Made by a program: the position numbers and the translations under genes. The notes under the pieces were generated by a model. The model was given only the letters and a program-made list of their open reading frames with translations, had not been told where the DNA came from and did not search any database. This document shows positions 1,741 through 47,316 of a stretch of DNA of 64,000 nt, piece by piece. Location of the stretch: the NCBI GenBank assembly GCA_900215285.1, contig OCMG01000004.1, positions 1,534,001 through 1,598,000 of the forward strand, read 5' to 3'. Source of the stretch: Ensifer adhaerens. GTDB taxonomy: Bacteria; Pseudomonadota; Alphaproteobacteria; Rhizobiales; Rhizobiaceae. The first letter of the stretch is position 1, and each line of letters begins with the position of its first letter.

Positions 1741-3468
1741 GTGGTCAAGCTTCCCAAGAAGGTGGTCATCATCGCGTCCGGTGTGGTTGTGCTCACCGGG
1801 GCGTCGGGTGCGACTGCCTTCTTCATCGGGAAGGATCGGATTCTCGGGCCATCGGCGCAGGAACTGAGCGGCGTGGAATGCACCGACGTGATCCGCGTCG
1901 CCGACATGCGCAGGGATCGCGGACCGTGGCTGCGCAAATATGTGCGCGTGCCGCCCGGCACCGATGGCATGACTCGGGTCAAGACGGCGTTGCGCGTGGC
2001 CAGGAAGGTTCAGGAAACGCTTCCGGCCGATCTCATTGAAATTGCCGTGCTGGACCAGGCCGGACCCGACAAGCGCGCCTTCATGCGCGGACGCGCAATC
2101 GGCGCGGAGGTGATCCTCGTCAAGGACAAGGCGAAGGTTCCCGGTATCACGCAGCCCTATACGATCCAGTACTATCAGGGTGCCGCCAGCGGAACGGGCA
2201 TGTTCTATGGCGAGGAGGCGACCATGACCTCCGCGGAGGCCGAAGAGCTTCTGTCGAAGATGAAGGACCTGACCGACTGCACCCCGCCGCCCGGCAAGGA
2301 AGACGCCGGCGAAAAGAAGGGTGAAAAGAAAAAAGAAACCAAGCACGAAAAGAAGCCGGAGAAAAAGGAAAAGCCGAAGGAAGGCGAGGGCCACGAATCG
2401 GCCGCCAAGGAAGGCGAGGGCGGCGGGCACGAAGCTGCCAAGAAGGAAGAGCCGAAGAAGGAAGAAAAGCCGGAAGTCGTCTTCCCGAACGACGTCTTTG
2501 GCAAGATGCAGAAGGCTGCCTTCGACAAGGCCGAAGAGGCTGCCGCCATTGAGGAAGAGCATAAGAAGGAAGAGGAAGCCAAGAAGCCGGGCATGTTCGG
2601 CAAGATGCTGGGCATGGTCGGTCTTGGCAGCAAGGAAGAGGCCGAGGGCGAACATGGCGCGTCCTCCGAGGGTGAACATGCGGCACCCGCAGAAGAGGGC
2701 GGCGATCATCCCGCTTCTGCCGAAGAGGGGCATGCCGGCGGGCATTCCGCACCTGCCGGATCGACCGGTGCGCAGCACGCGCCGGAGGCCTCCGAGCCTG
2801 CCAGCGGACATGATACCAAGGGTCAGTCAAACGGTGACGCCACGCAGGCCTCCCAGCATGAGACCAAATCCGAAGGCGGCAAGCCTGACAAGCCGGCCAA
2901 GGAAGCGACCGCGCCCGAGGAGAAGAGCGGTGGCATCATGTCGAAGATGCTTGGCATGGTTGGCTTCGGCAAGGACAAGCCCAAGGACACGATCGAGCAT
3001 TCCGGCGGCCCCGCCATCTTCAGCGGCAAGGCCGTGACGAAGGACGAAGCCGGCAAGGCTCCCGCGGGCGAGCAGCCAGCGCATGGCGCGGAAAAGGCAT
3101 CCGACCATGGGGAGGCACATGCCCCCGCCGACCATGGCGCCGCGCCCCAGGAGCCCGCAGGCGGGGAACATTCGGCGCCGGCGGAACACGGCGCTGCCGC
3201 CGAACACGCTCCGGCGACCTCCGAGGAGAGCGGTACATCTTCGGGCAGCAAGCCGGGCGATCATCAGACCGCGGCTGAACACCCCGCCGCACCCGCCGTC
3301 GATGGCGCTCCAGAGCATGATATACCCCCGGCGCAAAAGGCCTCGGCACACCAAGATCCCGATGGCCATGCCGGAAACTCCGCCCACGGTTCCGCTGCAA
3401 GCGAAGGCGAGCAGCCGGTGGAAGAGCAGAACACAGCCGATCATGCGCCCGCCGCCCACGGCGGCTGA
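1741..3468 (+). CDS. membrane-anchored low-complexity protein of unknown function
   Basis: A 575-residue protein that I cannot assign to a family. It starts with GTG directly after an in-frame stop, so no longer start exists; the Shine-Dalgarno is weak. Residues about 5-28 form one hydrophobic segment (signal anchor). A globular-looking region follows to about residue 180 with two cysteines (VECTDV and LTDCTPPP). Then comes a Lys/Glu-rich stretch, and the second half is Ala/Gly/His/Glu-rich with many AEHG- and HAP-like short repeats. An imperfect duplication of KMLGMVGxG occurs at nucleotides about 2590-2634 and 2935-2977. Neighbours give no functional hint. An extracytoplasmic disordered or linker protein is likely. 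Confidence 0.7.
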   Translation: MVKLPKKVVIIASGVVVLTGASGATAFFIGKDRILGPSAQELSGVECTDVIRVADMRRDRGPWLRKYVRVPPGTDGMTRVKTALRVARKVQETLPADLIEIAVLDQAGPDKRAFMRGRAIGAEVILVKDKAKVPGITQPYTIQYYQGAASGTGMFYGEEATMTSAEAEELLSKMKDLTDCTPPPGKEDAGEKKGEKKKETKHEKKPEKKEKPKEGEGHESAAKEGEGGGHEAAKKEEPKKEEKPEVVFPNDVFGKMQKAAFDKAEEAAAIEEEHKKEEEAKKPGMFGKMLGMVGLGSKEEAEGEHGASSEGEHAAPAEEGGDHPASAEEGHAGGHSAPAGSTGAQHAPEASEPASGHDTKGQSNGDATQASQHETKSEGGKPDKPAKEATAPEEKSGGIMSKMLGMVGFGKDKPKDTIEHSGGPAIFSGKAVTKDEAGKAPAGEQPAHGAEKASDHGEAHAPADHGAAPQEPAGGEHSAPAEHGAAAEHAPATSEESGTSSGSKPGDHQTAAEHPAAPAVDGAPEHDIPPAQKASAHQDPDGHAGNSAHGSAASEGEQPVEEQNTADHAPAAHGG

Positions 3469-3558
3469 GGGGGGAGTCTCCGCCTTTCCCCGAAACGCCT
3501 CGTCCGGGTGTGGTGCGTGTGATATGTGTCCTTCCCATTTTCACAGCGAGGGAACAGG

Positions 3559-14985: not shown

Positions 14986-15061
14986 GACAAGAGCCCGCTC
15001 ATCCGCCTGCCGGCACCTTTTCCCCGAAGGGGCGAAGGGACGGTGCGGCGCCCGCGAGTTT

Positions 15062-41625: not shown

Positions 41626-41756
41626 ACCTGCTTGGAATATGAACGTTTTTTGCAACATGCTGCCCTTTTCGGCATGTCAGAGGTTCACAAAGGCCCACGC
41701 ATTGTGTAGTTTCCGCAAAATTTTCGCCGGCGCCCTCCGCCCCGGCCCATAAACCT

Positions 41757-41798
41757 CTGGAGCCTCGGGCGATAGACTGCTATCGCCCGATGCTCCAG
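41757..41798 (+). terminator. strong hairpin ending the hisD operon
   Basis: CTGGAGCCTCGGGCGATAG pairs with CTATCGCCCGATGCTCCAG over 19 positions with a single mismatch and an ACTG loop. TTTATCG follows. It could terminate the upstream operon or be part of the infA leader. No gene is seen in the roughly 250-base gap. Confidence 0.6.
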
Positions 41799-41811
41799 TT
41801 TATCGCTTGTC

Positions 41812-41856
41812 GCGTCGGGTTAGCGAAAAACCGGTACCCACTTTTTCGCCCGACGC
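41812..41856. repeat. CCGGTNCCCAC-core palindrome upstream of infA
   Basis: GCGTCGGG/CCCGACGC and the inner GCGAAAAA/TTTTTCGC form a two-step inverted repeat around CCGGTACCCAC. The same core, GCGAAACCGGTTCCCACTTTCGC, occurs at 42142-42166 on the other side of infA. It ends 20 bases before the infA start. Confidence 0.65.
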
Positions 41857-41875
41857 TTAGGAAAGACCTGTCTGA

Positions 41876-42219: not shown

Positions 42220-42840
42220 ATGGCGACCGAACAAGCCCTCATTCTTGCCTCTGGTTCGCCGCGCCGCGTCGAACTCCTCGCGCAAGCGCGCATCGAGCCT
42301 GCCCGTCTCCTGCCGATGGATATCGACGAGACGCCGAAGCGCTCGGAAAATCCGCGCACGCTCGCCCAGCGCCTTGCCCGTGAAAAGGCGGAGGCCGCGT
42401 TCGCTGTCGTGCGCGCGGATGAGGAGTTGAAGGGCGGCTGGGTTCTGGCGGCCGATACGGTCGTCGCCGTTGGCCGGCGCATCCTGCCCAAGGCTGAATA
42501 CGAGGCGGATGCCTTTTCCTGCCTCAACCTGCTCTCCGGCCGTGCGCACTGGGTCTATACCGGCGTGACGCTCATTGCGCCGTCCGGCCACACGCGCGGC
42601 CGCATCGTCGAGACCAAGGTGCGCTTCAAGCGCCTTTCCAATGCGGAAATCGATGCCTATGTGCAGAGCGGCGAATGGCGCGGCAAGGCGGGTGGCTATG
42701 GCATCCAAGGCATTGCAGGCTCCTTCGTGCAGAAGCTCGCCGGCTCCTATACCAGCGTTGTCGGGCTTCCGCTGACCGAAACGCTGCAGCTTCTGGATGG
42801 CGAAGGCTTCGACATCCGCCGGGGCTGGAAGGAAGGCTGA
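42220..42840 (+). CDS. maf: Maf/YceF-family nucleotide pyrophosphatase
   Basis: A 206-residue house-cleaning enzyme that hydrolyses non-canonical or modified nucleoside triphosphates. The N-terminal [20 protein letters not shown] holds the SxSPRR motif. [13 protein letters not shown] and [23 protein letters not shown] give the catalytic acid, and [18 protein letters not shown] the substrate-binding segment. It lies upstream of yacG with an eight-base gap, the usual alphaproteobacterial order infA-maf-yacG. Confidence 0.94.
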
Positions 42841-42848
42841 GAGGCCCG

Positions 42849-43049
42849 ATGACCGCAAAAGTCGAACCTTTGAGAAAACCGCGCCCATGCCCCGAATGCG
42901 GGCAGCCGTCGGCGCGCGAACACTATCCCTTCTGCTCCGACCGCTGCCGCAATGTCGACCTGTCGCGCTGGCTCAACGGCTCCTATTCCATCCCCGTTTC
43001 CGAAGATGAAGAGAAGGCCGACGGCTTCGAGCGCGACTTTGAACGTTGA
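42849..43049 (+). CDS. yacG: DNA gyrase inhibitor YacG, zinc protein
   Basis: A 66-residue zinc-binding protein. CPECGQPS and PFCSDRCRNVDLSRWLNGSY carry the four cysteine ligands (CxxC and CxxxC spacing) that define YacG. It binds GyrB and inhibits gyrase in E. coli; the acidic tail is usual. It starts eight bases after maf, so translational coupling is probable. A tRNA-Phe gene follows 156 bases downstream. Confidence 0.95.
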   Translation: MTAKVEPLRKPRPCPECGQPSAREHYPFCSDRCRNVDLSRWLNGSYSIPVSEDEEKADGFERDFER

Positions 43050-43205
43050 TTTTGCTTCGCTTTCCGGACAGCCGAATTTTCTTCAAAAAACAGTCAAAAA
43101 ACTTCCCGTCGGTGCTGGACACGCGCGAACAAGATGCTATAACCTCGCTCGCTTCCGGGGAAAACCCGGCGGGTTTTGAAAAACCCGGTCACACAAGCGA
43201 CAAGT

Positions 43206-43281
43206 GCCCGGATAGCTCAGTTGGTAGAGCAGCGGATTGAAAATCCGCGTGTCGGTGGTTCAAATCCGCCTCCGGGCACCA
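43206..43281 (+). tRNA. tRNA-Phe (anticodon GAA)
   Basis: A 76-base tRNA: acceptor GCCCGGA/TCCGGGC, D-arm GCTCAGTTGGTAGAGC, anticodon stem GCGGA/TCCGC with GAA in the loop TTGAAAA, T-arm GGTGGTTCAAATCCGCC, and an encoded CCA. The AT-rich accessory segment begins immediately after its 3' end. Confidence 0.96.
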
Positions 43282-43338
43282 TTTTTCATCTTAGTAACAT
43301 CGATGTTGAAAAGATTGTGGTGTTAGGTTGACGCTGCG

Positions 43339-45147
43339 TTATTTTTTCGTAAATATCACTTCTGGTCCATTTTGACCAATCACTCGAAAAGTGACAGGTG
43401 CCGGGGCTCGCGATTCACCAATCCTGCGGGCTTCTGCGAAAAGCGCGTCAAGCTCTTCCATTGCGGTAGATTCCTCAAGGATTTGGTTCGCGTCCAACAG
43501 TCTTTGTCTGCAAATGCTGTAAGCTTCTGCCCCACATTCAACATACGCTGTAGTCATTGCATCAAGCATCATCTCGTGCTCCGAAATGAGAAAGCAGATA
43601 TGGAGAAAACCGGCCCAAGGTTCCGGCATTTGTGGCGTTAGAAGTGCTAGGGCCAAAAGAGCACAGTGTGCGTTGAGCAAGTCCTCACGCTCGATAGATT
43701 CAACCATAATGGTGTGGAGCTTTTTCGCGTCAGACGGCTTGACGTCAAAATTGCTCCATATTAGCCATTTCGTTAAGTAAGTTTTCAGCCTGATTTCTGC
43801 GGACAGGCTTGCTTCGGAAGTCTGTTCGATTTCTTCGAAGGCAGCGGCGGCCTCCTCAAAGGAACCGGTATATAGTCTAGCATCCGCTAATCGAAACTGT
43901 GCCGTTGCTGTCTTTTCAATCGAGAAGGCAGCCTCGTAGGCTCTTACTGCGCACTTGTATTTATTCGCAAAAAACAGAGAGCCTCCCAACTCACTTAGAA
44001 AATAAAACCTTGAGAGATAGTCTGGTTCAAATTTGCGCGCGCGGTTGAATGACCTGATGGCGTGACGGTACAATCCCATGGAAGCTTGGCTATTGCCTAG
44101 CGAGTAGAATATAGTTGAAGGATTACGGCCTCGTTCAATTGCCGCTTCTGCCGCCGCTCCGTTTAATTTCTCAAGGGCCTGCGAAACACGGTTATCATTC
44201 CCATTGCTCCCCATCAGCGACATGACAAAACTGCCGTAGAAATTGTCCTGTTCTGCGTGGACGTCATTCAGTATCGCTAGATCGGTTGCGTTCTGAGGGT
44301 CGCCTAGCAACGCTCGGCAAACTTCAAGTGCCAAACCCTTTTGCTGCGTGCGTATATTTTCCCTCAGGCAGAACAATGCGGCTGATTTGGCGTGTGCAGA
44401 GAGACCCATCTTGAGAAGGACAGCAGGCACGCCATAAACCAGTGCTGCCGCAATTTTTTCTAAGGAATACTCATCTACTTTGATATCCAGATAGCCTACA
44501 TGGGCGAAATCAATTCTTAGAAAACCATCTTTAAGCTGTATTTTTAGGCTCAGGCTTTTAGTATCTCCCTTTCTGAATTTTATAAAAGAAAGCATTTTCG
44601 AATATTCGCGGAGAACCTTTTCACAGGCGGAAAAATACGCAAATGATGCTGTGTGATTTTCAACTTCAATGAAAACGCTTTCATTTTGATCCGCGTTCTG
44701 CATTCTACGCAGTGCATTAATGTAGCTTGCTATCCCTGACGGGGTCTCTTGAGTCCAATCGTTGGGAACATCGAGGCTGACGGTTTGTGCGTCCTGCCCA
44801 ACCTGAGCAAATGCTTCATGATTCCAAATCCATTTCCAACCATTGGTGGGTTCGCAATATCTCGCGATTATGGCTGGAACGTTTAATGAAGCCAGATAGT
44901 TCAATCGATCTATTTTGACCGTGACTTTGTCGAATTTCTCGGCGTCGTCCGTAGCTTTGAGTTGAACGTAGAAGAAGAATCCTGTTGCTTGACCAGTGTC
45001 ATCAAAAATTTCGACTTCTAGGTCGACGCCATAGTCGCGACCTTTTTCCCGGCATACCCATTGTTCTGGCAGTAGCCTTTTGAATTCGTTTATTGACTTG
45101 TCTTCAAGCTGGTGTGTCCGGGATCGTTGGGGCAAGTTGCGTTCCAA
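43339..45147 (-). CDS. DUF4365 nuclease-like protein with TPR-like repeats
   Basis: A 602-residue orphan. Residues 12-110 match the DUF4365 pattern: HQLEDKSINEFKRLL, then YGVDLEVEI with Asp42, then FYVQLKAT with Gln62 and Lys64, the D...QxK arrangement of PD-(D/E)xK nuclease folds. The middle (about 120-300) is unassigned. From about 320 to 560, helical repeats such as SMGLYRHAIRSFNRARKFEP and FANKYKCAVRAYEAAFSIEK look like TPRs. The gene is AT-rich and uses AGA, ATA and TTA codons unlike its neighbours, and it lies just behind tRNA-Phe. DUF4365 domains occur in anti-phage contexts. Nuclease activity is inferred, not shown. Confidence 0.8.
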   Translation of the reverse strand: MERNLPQRSRTHQLEDKSINEFKRLLPEQWVCREKGRDYGVDLEVEIFDDTGQATGFFFYVQLKATDDAEKFDKVTVKIDRLNYLASLNVPAIIARYCEPTNGWKWIWNHEAFAQVGQDAQTVSLDVPNDWTQETPSGIASYINALRRMQNADQNESVFIEVENHTASFAYFSACEKVLREYSKMLSFIKFRKGDTKSLSLKIQLKDGFLRIDFAHVGYLDIKVDEYSLEKIAAALVYGVPAVLLKMGLSAHAKSAALFCLRENIRTQQKGLALEVCRALLGDPQNATDLAILNDVHAEQDNFYGSFVMSLMGSNGNDNRVSQALEKLNGAAAEAAIERGRNPSTIFYSLGNSQASMGLYRHAIRSFNRARKFEPDYLSRFYFLSELGGSLFFANKYKCAVRAYEAAFSIEKTATAQFRLADARLYTGSFEEAAAAFEEIEQTSEASLSAEIRLKTYLTKWLIWSNFDVKPSDAKKLHTIMVESIEREDLLNAHCALLALALLTPQMPEPWAGFLHICFLISEHEMMLDAMTTAYVECGAEAYSICRQRLLDANQILEESTAMEELDALFAEARRIGESRAPAPVTFRVIGQNGPEVIFTKK

Positions 45148-45315
45148 TATAGAGCAAACATGATTCCCGTATTGTATATATCGCCTTTAAGCTGAATTAC
45201 ACCGCCATACCCTTGTAAAGGGTGCCAAATCTCGACCTTTTGTCAGCCTGTGGAGACGTGCGGCGCTTTGCCAGTGAAGCATTTTCCGTCGTCTGAGGAC
45301 TCGAAAATCCTCACC

Positions 45316-46461
45316 TCAATGCGCAAACTGCAACGTCGCCAGAAACAGCACGATCCCCAGCGCCATCACAAAGGCCGCGCCCAATATTTCGATCGCCGTG
45401 CCGATTTTCTCGCCCACCGTGCCATCGCCTGCGAGCTTCACGGCCAGACCCTTGGCTGACACGGCGGTGATGGCGAGAGCCGAGACGGTGATGGCGGTGC
45501 CGATGGACATGGCGAGGACGGAGAGGATGCCGCCGAGATAGAGGCTGTTGAGCAGCGAGAAGGTCACGACGATGATCGCGCCGGAACAGGGGCGCAGGCC
45601 CACAGCCAGCACGGCGGAAAAGGCTGCCTTGAGGCTAAAGTTCTCGCCGCCGAGCGATTGCGGGGAGGGCATGTGGGCGTGGCCGCATTCCTCGCAGAAA
45701 TCGGCGACGGCGGTCCTGTTCGTCTTGCCCGAGCCGAGGAAGCCGGTCGGCTGGCCAGAGCCCGGGCCGAGTTTGAAACCGGATTTGGCGGGTGCCAGGC
45801 GCTGGACGGTGGTGTGGTCGCAGGCGCACAGCGCGTCGTCGTCATGCGCGTGAAACTGCATCCCCGCCGGCATGCCGGCCATGGCCGGCGCGTTGGCGCG
45901 GCGAGGGGCCGATTTGGTGACCAGGCTGCGCACCTTGCGCACCAGCATCCAGAAGCCGAAGCCGGCGACCAGAAGATAGCTGGCCTGTTCGAGGAAATCG
46001 GTGGCGTTGGTCAGCGTGATCGAGGTGCTGCGCAGGACGACATAGGCTGTCCCCACGACGAGCAGCGCCGTAATGCCCTGCAGGAAGGAGGAGATGATCG
46101 CAATCAGGATGCCGCGTTTCAGCTGGATCTCGTTGGCGATCATGTAGGAGGAAATGACGGCCTTGCCGTGTCCCGGACCTGCTGCGTGGAAGACGCCGTA
46201 GAGGAAGGAGAGGCTGACCAGCGTCCAAAGCTTCCAGGGATCCTGGCGCATGGCGACCAGCGCCTGGGTCAGGGCTCGATAGAAGCGTTGCTGCTCCATG
46301 TTGACCCACATGAGAAACGTGCCGCCAAAGCCTGTCGTGTTGAACGAGGGTTCGGCAGTGCCGATGCCAAGCGGCGAGCCGGCATGGGCCGCGAGCGGGG
46401 CAAGGAGGGCGGTGGCGGCAAGCGCCAGGGCGAGGCGTCGGATGTTTTTCGTGGTCAGCAT
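45316..46461 (-). CDS. NicO-family nickel/cobalt (or zinc) membrane transporter
   Basis: A 381-residue inner-membrane protein with a signal-like first segment and about six further hydrophobic segments. The family signature is HAAGPGHGKAVISSYMIANE. GLRPCSGAIIVVTFSLLNSLYLGGILSVLAMSIGTAI is the second conserved block, between about residues 290 and 326. A long cytoplasmic loop contains HAHDDDALCACDHTT and CEECGHAH, likely metal-binding. It overlaps the upstream DUF1007 gene by seven bases, the standard pairing for this family. Metal identity is unresolved. Confidence 0.9.
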   Translation of the reverse strand: MLTTKNIRRLALALAATALLAPLAAHAGSPLGIGTAEPSFNTTGFGGTFLMWVNMEQQRFYRALTQALVAMRQDPWKLWTLVSLSFLYGVFHAAGPGHGKAVISSYMIANEIQLKRGILIAIISSFLQGITALLVVGTAYVVLRSTSITLTNATDFLEQASYLLVAGFGFWMLVRKVRSLVTKSAPRRANAPAMAGMPAGMQFHAHDDDALCACDHTTVQRLAPAKSGFKLGPGSGQPTGFLGSGKTNRTAVADFCEECGHAHMPSPQSLGGENFSLKAAFSAVLAVGLRPCSGAIIVVTFSLLNSLYLGGILSVLAMSIGTAITVSALAITAVSAKGLAVKLAGDGTVGEKIGTAIEILGAAFVMALGIVLFLATLQFAH

Positions 46462-47099
46462 GTCACTTCGATCCGCGTTGCGAAGAGCTTCGACATGGTC
46501 GTTCCCATCGGGTCGTTGAAGAAGGCTTGCGTCAGTGTCTTCTGGTTCTGGGCGATCACCTCGTCCGGGTTCGGACGGACGACCTTGTGGGTGCAGGCCT
46601 TGAAGCCCGCGCCTTCGACGACAATGTCCTTGTCGGTGGCGAAGTCGAGCGAGGTGTAGAGCGTCGGGTCCCAGACGCCGAAGGTCATGTCGCCCTTCAG
46701 CGGCATGGGGGTTGCCGGCTTCACGGCGAAAAACATCAGGAGCTGGCCGTCCTTGTAGTCGACATTGATGACATCGGGCGGCGCGATGTCGATCTTCTTC
46801 CCGTTCTGCGTAATGTTGGTATAGTAATCGAAATCGGCCAGCGACTGTTTCACGGTCTTGCCGACGGCCTTCAGCTCGTCCGGGTCAAGCTTCAGGTTCC
46901 TGTTCTTGTCGAAATCCAGAAGCACGGTCGAGGAGAACACTTCGTCGAAGCGCCAGACATTGCGCAGCTCCTTCACATTGCCGTCGTCGCCGGCGATCAC
47001 TTCCAGTCGCGCCTCCACGAAGATGTGCGGATGGGCGAAGGCTGCGGCCGGGACGAGAAGGCCGAACAGCGTCGTGAGAAGGGCAAGCTTGCGGATCAT
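46455..47099 (-). CDS. DUF1007 periplasmic protein, partner of the NicO transporter
   Basis: A 214-residue secreted protein. The signal peptide MIRKLALLTTLFGLLVPAAAFA ends before HPHIFVEARLEV, the hallmark start of DUF1007; the two exposed histidines could bind metal at the new N-terminus. SSTVLLDFDKNRNLKLDPDEL resembles an EF-hand-like loop. ATG 47099 is preceded by the signal; a longer frame to 47144 is unlikely. It is the first gene of a two-gene metal-transport operon. The 200-base upstream gap shows no recognisable riboswitch. Confidence 0.88.
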   Translation of the reverse strand: MIRKLALLTTLFGLLVPAAAFAHPHIFVEARLEVIAGDDGNVKELRNVWRFDEVFSSTVLLDFDKNRNLKLDPDELKAVGKTVKQSLADFDYYTNITQNGKKIDIAPPDVINVDYKDGQLLMFFAVKPATPMPLKGDMTFGVWDPTLYTSLDFATDKDIVVEGAGFKACTHKVVRPNPDEVIAQNQKTLTQAFFNDPMGTTMSKLFATRIEVTC

Positions 47100-47316
47100 G
47101 GAACCATCGTCTGTCGGAATTGCATGCCAGATCCCCCGGTGCATCAGGACGATTGCCTGTTGATCTGCCTGTTCATCTTGTCATGCCGGCCTGGCGAAAA
47201 AAACCGGATTCCTCTGCTTCGCCGACGCCTTGAGTGATCCTCAATCTGGACGAAAATGAGCCCGCGCCCGAAGCAGCCTGTGCGGCACCATGTCACGACC
47301 GGCATGACCGGCAAAG

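Follow-up and report, generated by a model that had tools for sequence, protein, structure and literature searches.

A recently exchanged DUF4365-TPR gene behind tRNA-Phe of Ensifer adhaerens, a probable single-gene defence effector

We analysed a 64,000-nucleotide stretch of the Ensifer adhaerens genome (contig OCMG01000004.1, positions 1,534,001 to 1,598,000; hereafter the window), in which a small AT-rich segment carrying one DUF4365-TPR (tetratricopeptide repeat) gene lies between tRNA-Phe and a transporter gene. The tRNA-Phe(GAA) gene (43206..43281, plus strand), located by ARAGORN, Rfam and a pattern search, is the left border of this slot. The right border, placed by tblastn and border alignment, is a NicO/RcnA-like transporter gene (45316..46461, minus strand). 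Between the CCA of the tRNA and the NicO stop codon, the exchangeable segment (43282..45315, no strand assigned) has a GC content of 46.7%, compared with 54-68% in 1-kb steps over the rest of the window. It holds a single long gene (43339..45147, minus strand; open reading frame (ORF) listing, Pfam and homologues), which starts with TTG and encodes a DUF4365 (DREN-type nuclease)-TPR protein of 602 residues. GC at third codon positions is 47% in this gene, whereas the values measured in seven neighbouring genes are 77-84%. Apart from an 89-residue antisense ORF, the segment has no further ORF of 80 or more residues, and Rfam at gathering thresholds found nothing besides tRNA-Phe in 42800-46500. 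An earlier note, made from the letters alone, had described a one-gene segment of low GC and unusual codons that begins at the tRNA CCA; our measurements agree, except that low GC persists past the right end given there, 45240, and reaches approximately the NicO stop (near 45315).

We found no integrase or mobility gene among the ORFs of at least 80 residues in the segment. With up to 1 mismatch allowed, the last 17 bases of tRNA-Phe occur nowhere else in the genome, and with up to 3 mismatches they do not recur in the 12 kb surrounding the segment; the window has two 3-mismatch matches, at 15003 and 60643, both distant from the segment. Since the genome-wide search gave no other copy of this 17-mer, the tRNA is apparently the sole tRNA-Phe of the genome. 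The ORF listing and the genome-wide 17-mer search thus uphold the earlier note on the absence of both an integrase and a repeated tRNA end. An 8-base match between the tRNA anticodon arm and 45303-45310 (GAAAATCC) was dropped as likely due to chance.

The N-terminal domain of the protein (residues 1-150; 44698..45147, minus strand) matches Pfam DUF4365 over residues 15-141 (E 3.6e-17; 63.1 bits vs a cut-off of 24.3 bits; model positions 1-137 of 139) and carries the motif D38xGxD42...Q62xK64. Because the full-length AlphaFold2 model was of insufficient quality at the N-terminus, this domain was modelled separately, with a predicted local distance difference test score (pLDDT) of 86.2. In the predicted structure, compared by Foldseek and VIA, it has a nuclease-like PD-(D/E)xK core to which the DREN domain of SPARDA is closest. 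D42, Q62 and K64 are invariant across five homologue alignments, and an alignment by hidden Markov model (HMM) places them on the NbaSPARDA DREN structure 9jsb_D, whose catalytic residues are reported as D41/Q60/K62 (PMC12205087). The metal-binding and catalytic triad appears intact, and nuclease activity of the domain is predicted. PHROGs gave one match, to a family of unknown function (residues 4-85), and the domain model had no match at E <=0.001 in a viral structure library.

The middle region (about residues 151-228; 44464..44697, minus strand) matches no Pfam family and is predicted to be alpha/beta at low confidence (10-residue mean pLDDT about 35-59). It is followed by a predicted helical TPR solenoid (about residues 229-582; 43402..44463, minus strand; Pfam, AlphaFold2, Foldseek and VIA), in which Pfam TPR_2 matches residues 346-377 (E 1.8e-7), weaker TPR families extend up to residue 450, and 10-residue mean pLDDT is 62-88 over 381-580 and 27-55 over 231-380. 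The earlier note had named D42...Q62-x-K64, read the C-terminal half as TPRs and suggested a structural check for a PD-(D/E)xK core; the residues are located exactly where it put them, and the repeats and the predicted core were both recovered.

We compared the slot in six congeneric genomes, G000 (the genome studied here) to G005. By tblastn, YacG and tRNA-Phe lie on the left in 6/6 and NicO on the right in 5/6; just an 86-residue piece of NicO was matched in G005, and NicO was not found at G002. Behind tRNA-Phe, these genomes have five different contents. The DUF4365-TPR gene fills the slot in G000 and G003, an AT-rich 294-residue gene of unknown family in G005 (L043:4513-5397), a 247-residue unknown gene of 44% GC (L044:4716-5459) and then a HigBA pair in G004, and a type I-like N6-methylase with a 199-residue specificity-type gene in G001. 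G002 has a complete Gabija system at 48% GC (L046:7024-10673; GajA 3.8e-218, GajB 2.8e-183), and a search of 10 other genomes gave no full-length match to its GajA. Cassette size is 1.1-2.3 kb in the five congeners measured to NicO, and the Gabija genes of G002 span about 3.7 kb. In the alignments, divergence begins 4-6 bases past the CCA on the left, where G001 and G004 share a few more bases; on the right it begins immediately beyond the NicO stop. The slot behind tRNA-Phe is, in these six genomes, a defence hotspot of the genus with varied cargo between conserved flanks, and the 294- and 247-residue genes are candidate undescribed defence genes.

The two copies of the DUF4365-TPR gene are nearly identical. 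Between G000 and G003, it differs at 1/268 four-fold degenerate sites, the other genes compared being HisD (65/269), UPF0262 (5/78), LMWP (16/84), Maf (17/130), YacG (3/32), NicO (61/240), DUF1007 (38/115), LysR (64/177) and ODC (32/212). Over 1808 aligned bases there are 9 differences, and the frame is intact in both. In 250-base steps (last, partial windows left out), identity is 98.4-100% in the seven windows of 43500-45249 and 80.8-98.4% in the flanks, scanned from 39000 on the left and up to 50749 on the right. Hence, with a near-identical gene amid diverged flanks, the segment is the unit that moved, after the separation of G000 and G003. Since there is neither an integrase nor a repeated tRNA end, exchange through the homologous flanks is the simplest route, and most likely cassettes are swapped by homologous recombination via these flanks, as has been proposed for the core defence hotspots of Pseudomonas aeruginosa (PMC10250203). 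Integrating elements may first have opened the site, before such flank-driven swaps. The arrival of the gene, unclear in the earlier note, is thus partly explained: the slot is exchanged between congeners, by a route that we infer.

In the wider family, we examined the surroundings of tRNA-Phe in 13 further genomes and found a Pfam-confirmed integrase nearby in three (G008, G009 and G012). The integrase ORF starts 123 bp behind tRNA-Phe in G012 (L051:4069-8575) and 95 bp behind it in G009 (L056:3927-7636); both integrases appear to be P4-type by our reading of their Pfam domains, and both are followed by TIR-domain proteins (672 and 591 residues, respectively), with a DUF4231/SLATT-like gene also in L056. 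G008 has a phage integrase, and 23 bases of its tRNA end are repeated identically 26 kb away. In genomes such as G013, G014 and G018, the genes behind tRNA-Phe are all of native GC, and no YacG was detected next to tRNA-Phe in G009, G010 and G011. PADLOC matched 5/10 chosen cargo proteins from four wider-family genomes, several of them weakly, and its mad2 match in G015 is probably an isoaspartate methyltransferase (Pfam). The Mesorhizobium symbiosis island ICEMlSymR7A likewise targets a sole phe-tRNA and is reported to have a P4-type integrase 198 bp downstream of it (PMC4334631). In contrast, our genome has no integrase in the segment and no repeated tRNA 3' end, and for it an integrase-borne tRNA island (an integrative and conjugative element or a P4-like one) was rejected on these grounds.

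A search of 201 genomes (our own and 200 relatives) found the full-length protein in two, G000 and G003, both congeneric; a third genome matched in the TPR part only. The gene is therefore not universal in the family; universal, syntenic presence would have refuted the reading of the earlier note. By tblastn, 13 of 72,556 plasmid records contain relatives, four of them Agrobacterium records that match the whole query at 33%, and the relatives aligning over at least 80% are from Agrobacterium only; the segment has no DNA-level relatives among plasmids. Homologues of the same architecture are encoded in Agrobacterium (Ach5 pAt, WP_038496277.1), Aliarcobacter (WP_148572017.1), Vibrio (pW7G, WP_175247384.1) and Curtobacterium (WP_198658829.1), and bear only the database name 'DUF4365 domain-containing protein'. 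These resemble our protein in length (about 596-647 residues), in the N-terminal DUF4365, in C-terminal TPR-region similarity and in their invariant catalytic residues; they differ in being only 22-34% identical and plasmid-borne beside defence-like genes. Shorter relatives, of 251 residues in V. anguillarum and 282 residues in E. coli, have only the N-terminal domain in common with our protein.

Among viral contigs of IMG/VR, two encode full-length relatives (best segments 31% for L095/L128 and 39% for L096/L127) and six others encode more distant DUF4365 proteins. On one of the two, neighbouring ORFs read as terminase, protease and capsid, judged from their translations, and an HNH gene has PADLOC effector matches. 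A protein search of 50,697 phage records gave no relative of our protein or of the L096 homologue. Across the phylum, DUF4365 occurs in 28/398 sampled genomes, in frames of varied length. A class-wide profile search matched 138/385 genomes, which we do not use as a count because the matches listed are mostly TPR stretches.

Around the homologues, we scanned neighbouring genes with PADLOC. At the Ach5 plasmid locus (L036), 10 of the 25 other features listed were picked as plausible, and 8/10 had a match at E 1e-3, some weak and some strong, including AbiEii (2.5e-99), HerA (7e-159), DUF4297 (1.3e-36) and a SMEK protein with Argonaute-associated restriction endonuclease (REase) and Avs2 matches. 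At four other homologue loci, 9/10 chosen genes matched, including bSEFIR (1.4e-83) and a type III methyltransferase (1.4e-204). In the window, none of nine core genes that flank the segment had a match (0/9). The earlier note had suggested looking for enrichment near known defence genes; the homologues do lie near such genes, and enrichment does not follow, as the neighbours were chosen by hand. As a separate observation on the gene order at this plasmid locus (L036:14053-25040), the HerA-DUF4297 pair stands immediately downstream of the Agrobacterium homologue, with the SMEK/Avs2-like protein and a viperin-like radical SAM gene beyond it.

Since the gene was recently exchanged, lies in a variable slot and joins a nuclease domain of Argonaute immunity to possible sensor repeats, it looks like a one-gene, Argonaute-free phage defence. 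This supports the single-gene anti-phage or abortive-infection system that the earlier note had expected from a nuclease-like domain fused to a repeat sensor at an island site. We therefore favour, at a probability of about 0.72, a horizontally exchanged single-gene DREN-TPR defence effector that would be gathered and triggered via its TPR half. DUF4365-APAZ proteins with a short Argonaute are reported to degrade DNA nonspecifically once activated (PMC10810196). For NbaSPARDA, the isolated DREN domain is described as monomeric with no detectable activity, and tetramerisation turns it on (PMC12205087). Our protein keeps the DxGxD...QxK motif but has TPRs in place of the Argonaute scaffold; most economically, its TPR half would be what senses infection and draws the DREN domains together. 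In a resting cell, the protein would be inactive. The TPR solenoid, as sensor and/or scaffold, would bind a phage or plasmid component or a host protein altered by infection, and this binding would gather several copies so that their DREN domains multimerise as on the SPARDA filament. Multimerised DREN would then cut DNA, perhaps RNA too, without sequence specificity, and this may halt the invader and/or the cell.

The proposed effector departs from known systems at defined points. The DREN-APAZ/short Argonaute systems (NbaSPARDA, XauSPARDA and TmuRE-Ago) have APAZ behind the nuclease, whereas our protein continues with a middle region and then TPRs. Instead of a short Argonaute gene in the same operon, there is a single gene between tRNA-Phe and NicO; the Pfam Piwi model, which may miss divergent short Argonautes, matched in 0/2 carrier genomes (G000 and G003); and the Argonaute-associated PADLOC match is confined to residues 30-103. 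SPARDA membership was rejected, since TPRs stand where APAZ is expected (no APAZ-only model was run) and no Argonaute was found. With TPR in place of APAZ, a single gene and no Piwi match, guide-directed recognition is not expected. STAND-TPR defence proteins (Avs/AVAST and the TIR-STAND-TPR proteins of P4 satellites) are described as likewise joining an N-terminal effector to a C-terminal repeat sensor in one gene (PMC9122126). Unlike these, our protein has no STAND NTPase or other P-loop family among the nine families of a Pfam scan up to E 10. As for the site, core defence hotspots of P. aeruginosa (cDHS1/2) and E. coli are reported to have conserved core flanks including tRNA, variable defence cargo and often no identifiable mobile element, as here (PMC10250203, PMC10121019). 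The median of 26 kb given for cDHS1 (PMC10250203) contrasts with the small cassettes of our slot.

Several points weigh against a DREN-TPR defence effector. The slot occupants of the congeners are not all known defence genes: the 294- and 247-residue genes match no PADLOC, Pfam or PHROGs family, no restriction subunit was seen in the G001 interval, and the DNA that carries HigBA in G004, at a native GC of about 0.62, is possibly not cargo. In the fold comparison, rows less than 1 Z apart are counted as tied, so that the best Hjc row (Z 11.5) cannot be told apart from the lowest SPARDA rows (Z 11.9-12.2), and likeness of fold demonstrates no function. The PADLOC matches of the protein itself are weak (Argonaute-associated REase model, 3.9e-5; candidate PDC-M02A, 0.0017). 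The full-length model is of poor quality, at a mean pLDDT of 54.6, so that both the arrangement of the domains and oligomerisation by the TPRs are guesswork. Finally, as the neighbours were hand-picked, their match rates are biased upward and give no unbiased test of enrichment.

The Hjc tie bears on another reading, a DNA-repair or recombination nuclease (Holliday-junction-resolvase-like) whose TPRs bind partners and which has no immune role; we consider this quite improbable. Mobile-element defence, i.e., plasmid or phage exclusion or inter-element competition, would use the same nuclease-sensor machine, selected as plasmid or prophage cargo. This is consistent with the same-architecture homologues on the Agrobacterium, Aliarcobacter, Vibrio and Curtobacterium plasmids and on the two IMG/VR contigs, one with phage-like neighbours, and with the DUF4365 gene reported in SGI1-related elements (PMC9035990). 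The chromosomal position of our copy, the lack of a mobility gene in its segment and the absence of matches in the phage records make it unlikely, and it departs from the defence effector that we favour mainly over the beneficiary.

A toxin, either intercellular like the injected DUF4365-containing protein EAT16 or part of a toxin-antitoxin pair, is very improbable. EAT16 is reported to be toxic in E. coli, and mutation of three of four DxGxD...QxK residues led to loss, in context of activity (PMC11297309). However, the segment has no second same-strand ORF of at least 80 residues, in a listing that stopped at that length and included no search for secretion signals or delivery genes, and the conserved TPR fusion suggests regulated intracellular activity. 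The lack of an integrase and of a second border repeat would also suit a decayed or domesticated, inactive remnant of a larger island. To this we give hardly any weight, since the intact frames of both carriers, so few differences between them and the kept catalytic residues speak for a maintained gene, and a congener has a complete system, Gabija, in the same slot.

Elsewhere in the window, a stretch of about 105 bases at 41750-41866 is missing at the same point in the aligned congeners G001, G003, G004 and G005. It contains a 42-base inverted repeat (86%), has one partial copy elsewhere in the genome (47 bases, 87%) and looks like a small palindromic repeat element. Another stretch of about 100 bases (47127-47227) is absent from G003, and the first has no blastn match to it. 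The AT skew is locally strong at 2001-3500, with values of 0.40 and 0.36 in two of the intervals measured, at GC that is not lowered.

None of the components is new by itself: the nuclease domain, the pairing of an effector with repeats and defence hotspots have all been described. In the literature searched, we found no Argonaute-free, STAND-free DREN-TPR protein and no paper with DUF4365 together with TPR as whole words. A broader proposition, to which we give even odds, is a stand-alone, Argonaute-free DREN immunity in which the TPRs recognise an invader-derived or altered protein and set off guide-independent collateral degradation of nucleic acid by a single polypeptide. Plasmids and phages would carry it between distant phyla, and in Rhizobiaceae the single gene would be exchanged as a cassette at a tRNA-Phe site with no integrase of its own. 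DREN (DUF4365) is known for its collateral nuclease activity, turned on by short Argonautes through a guide RNA. If a single-gene form of it, coupled to a TPR sensor, is indeed widespread, protein sensing would by itself suffice to control this effector, and DREN-TPR would be a minimal and readily testable activation system. A defence exchange slot would also be located at a kind of tRNA-Phe site already known from a symbiosis island.
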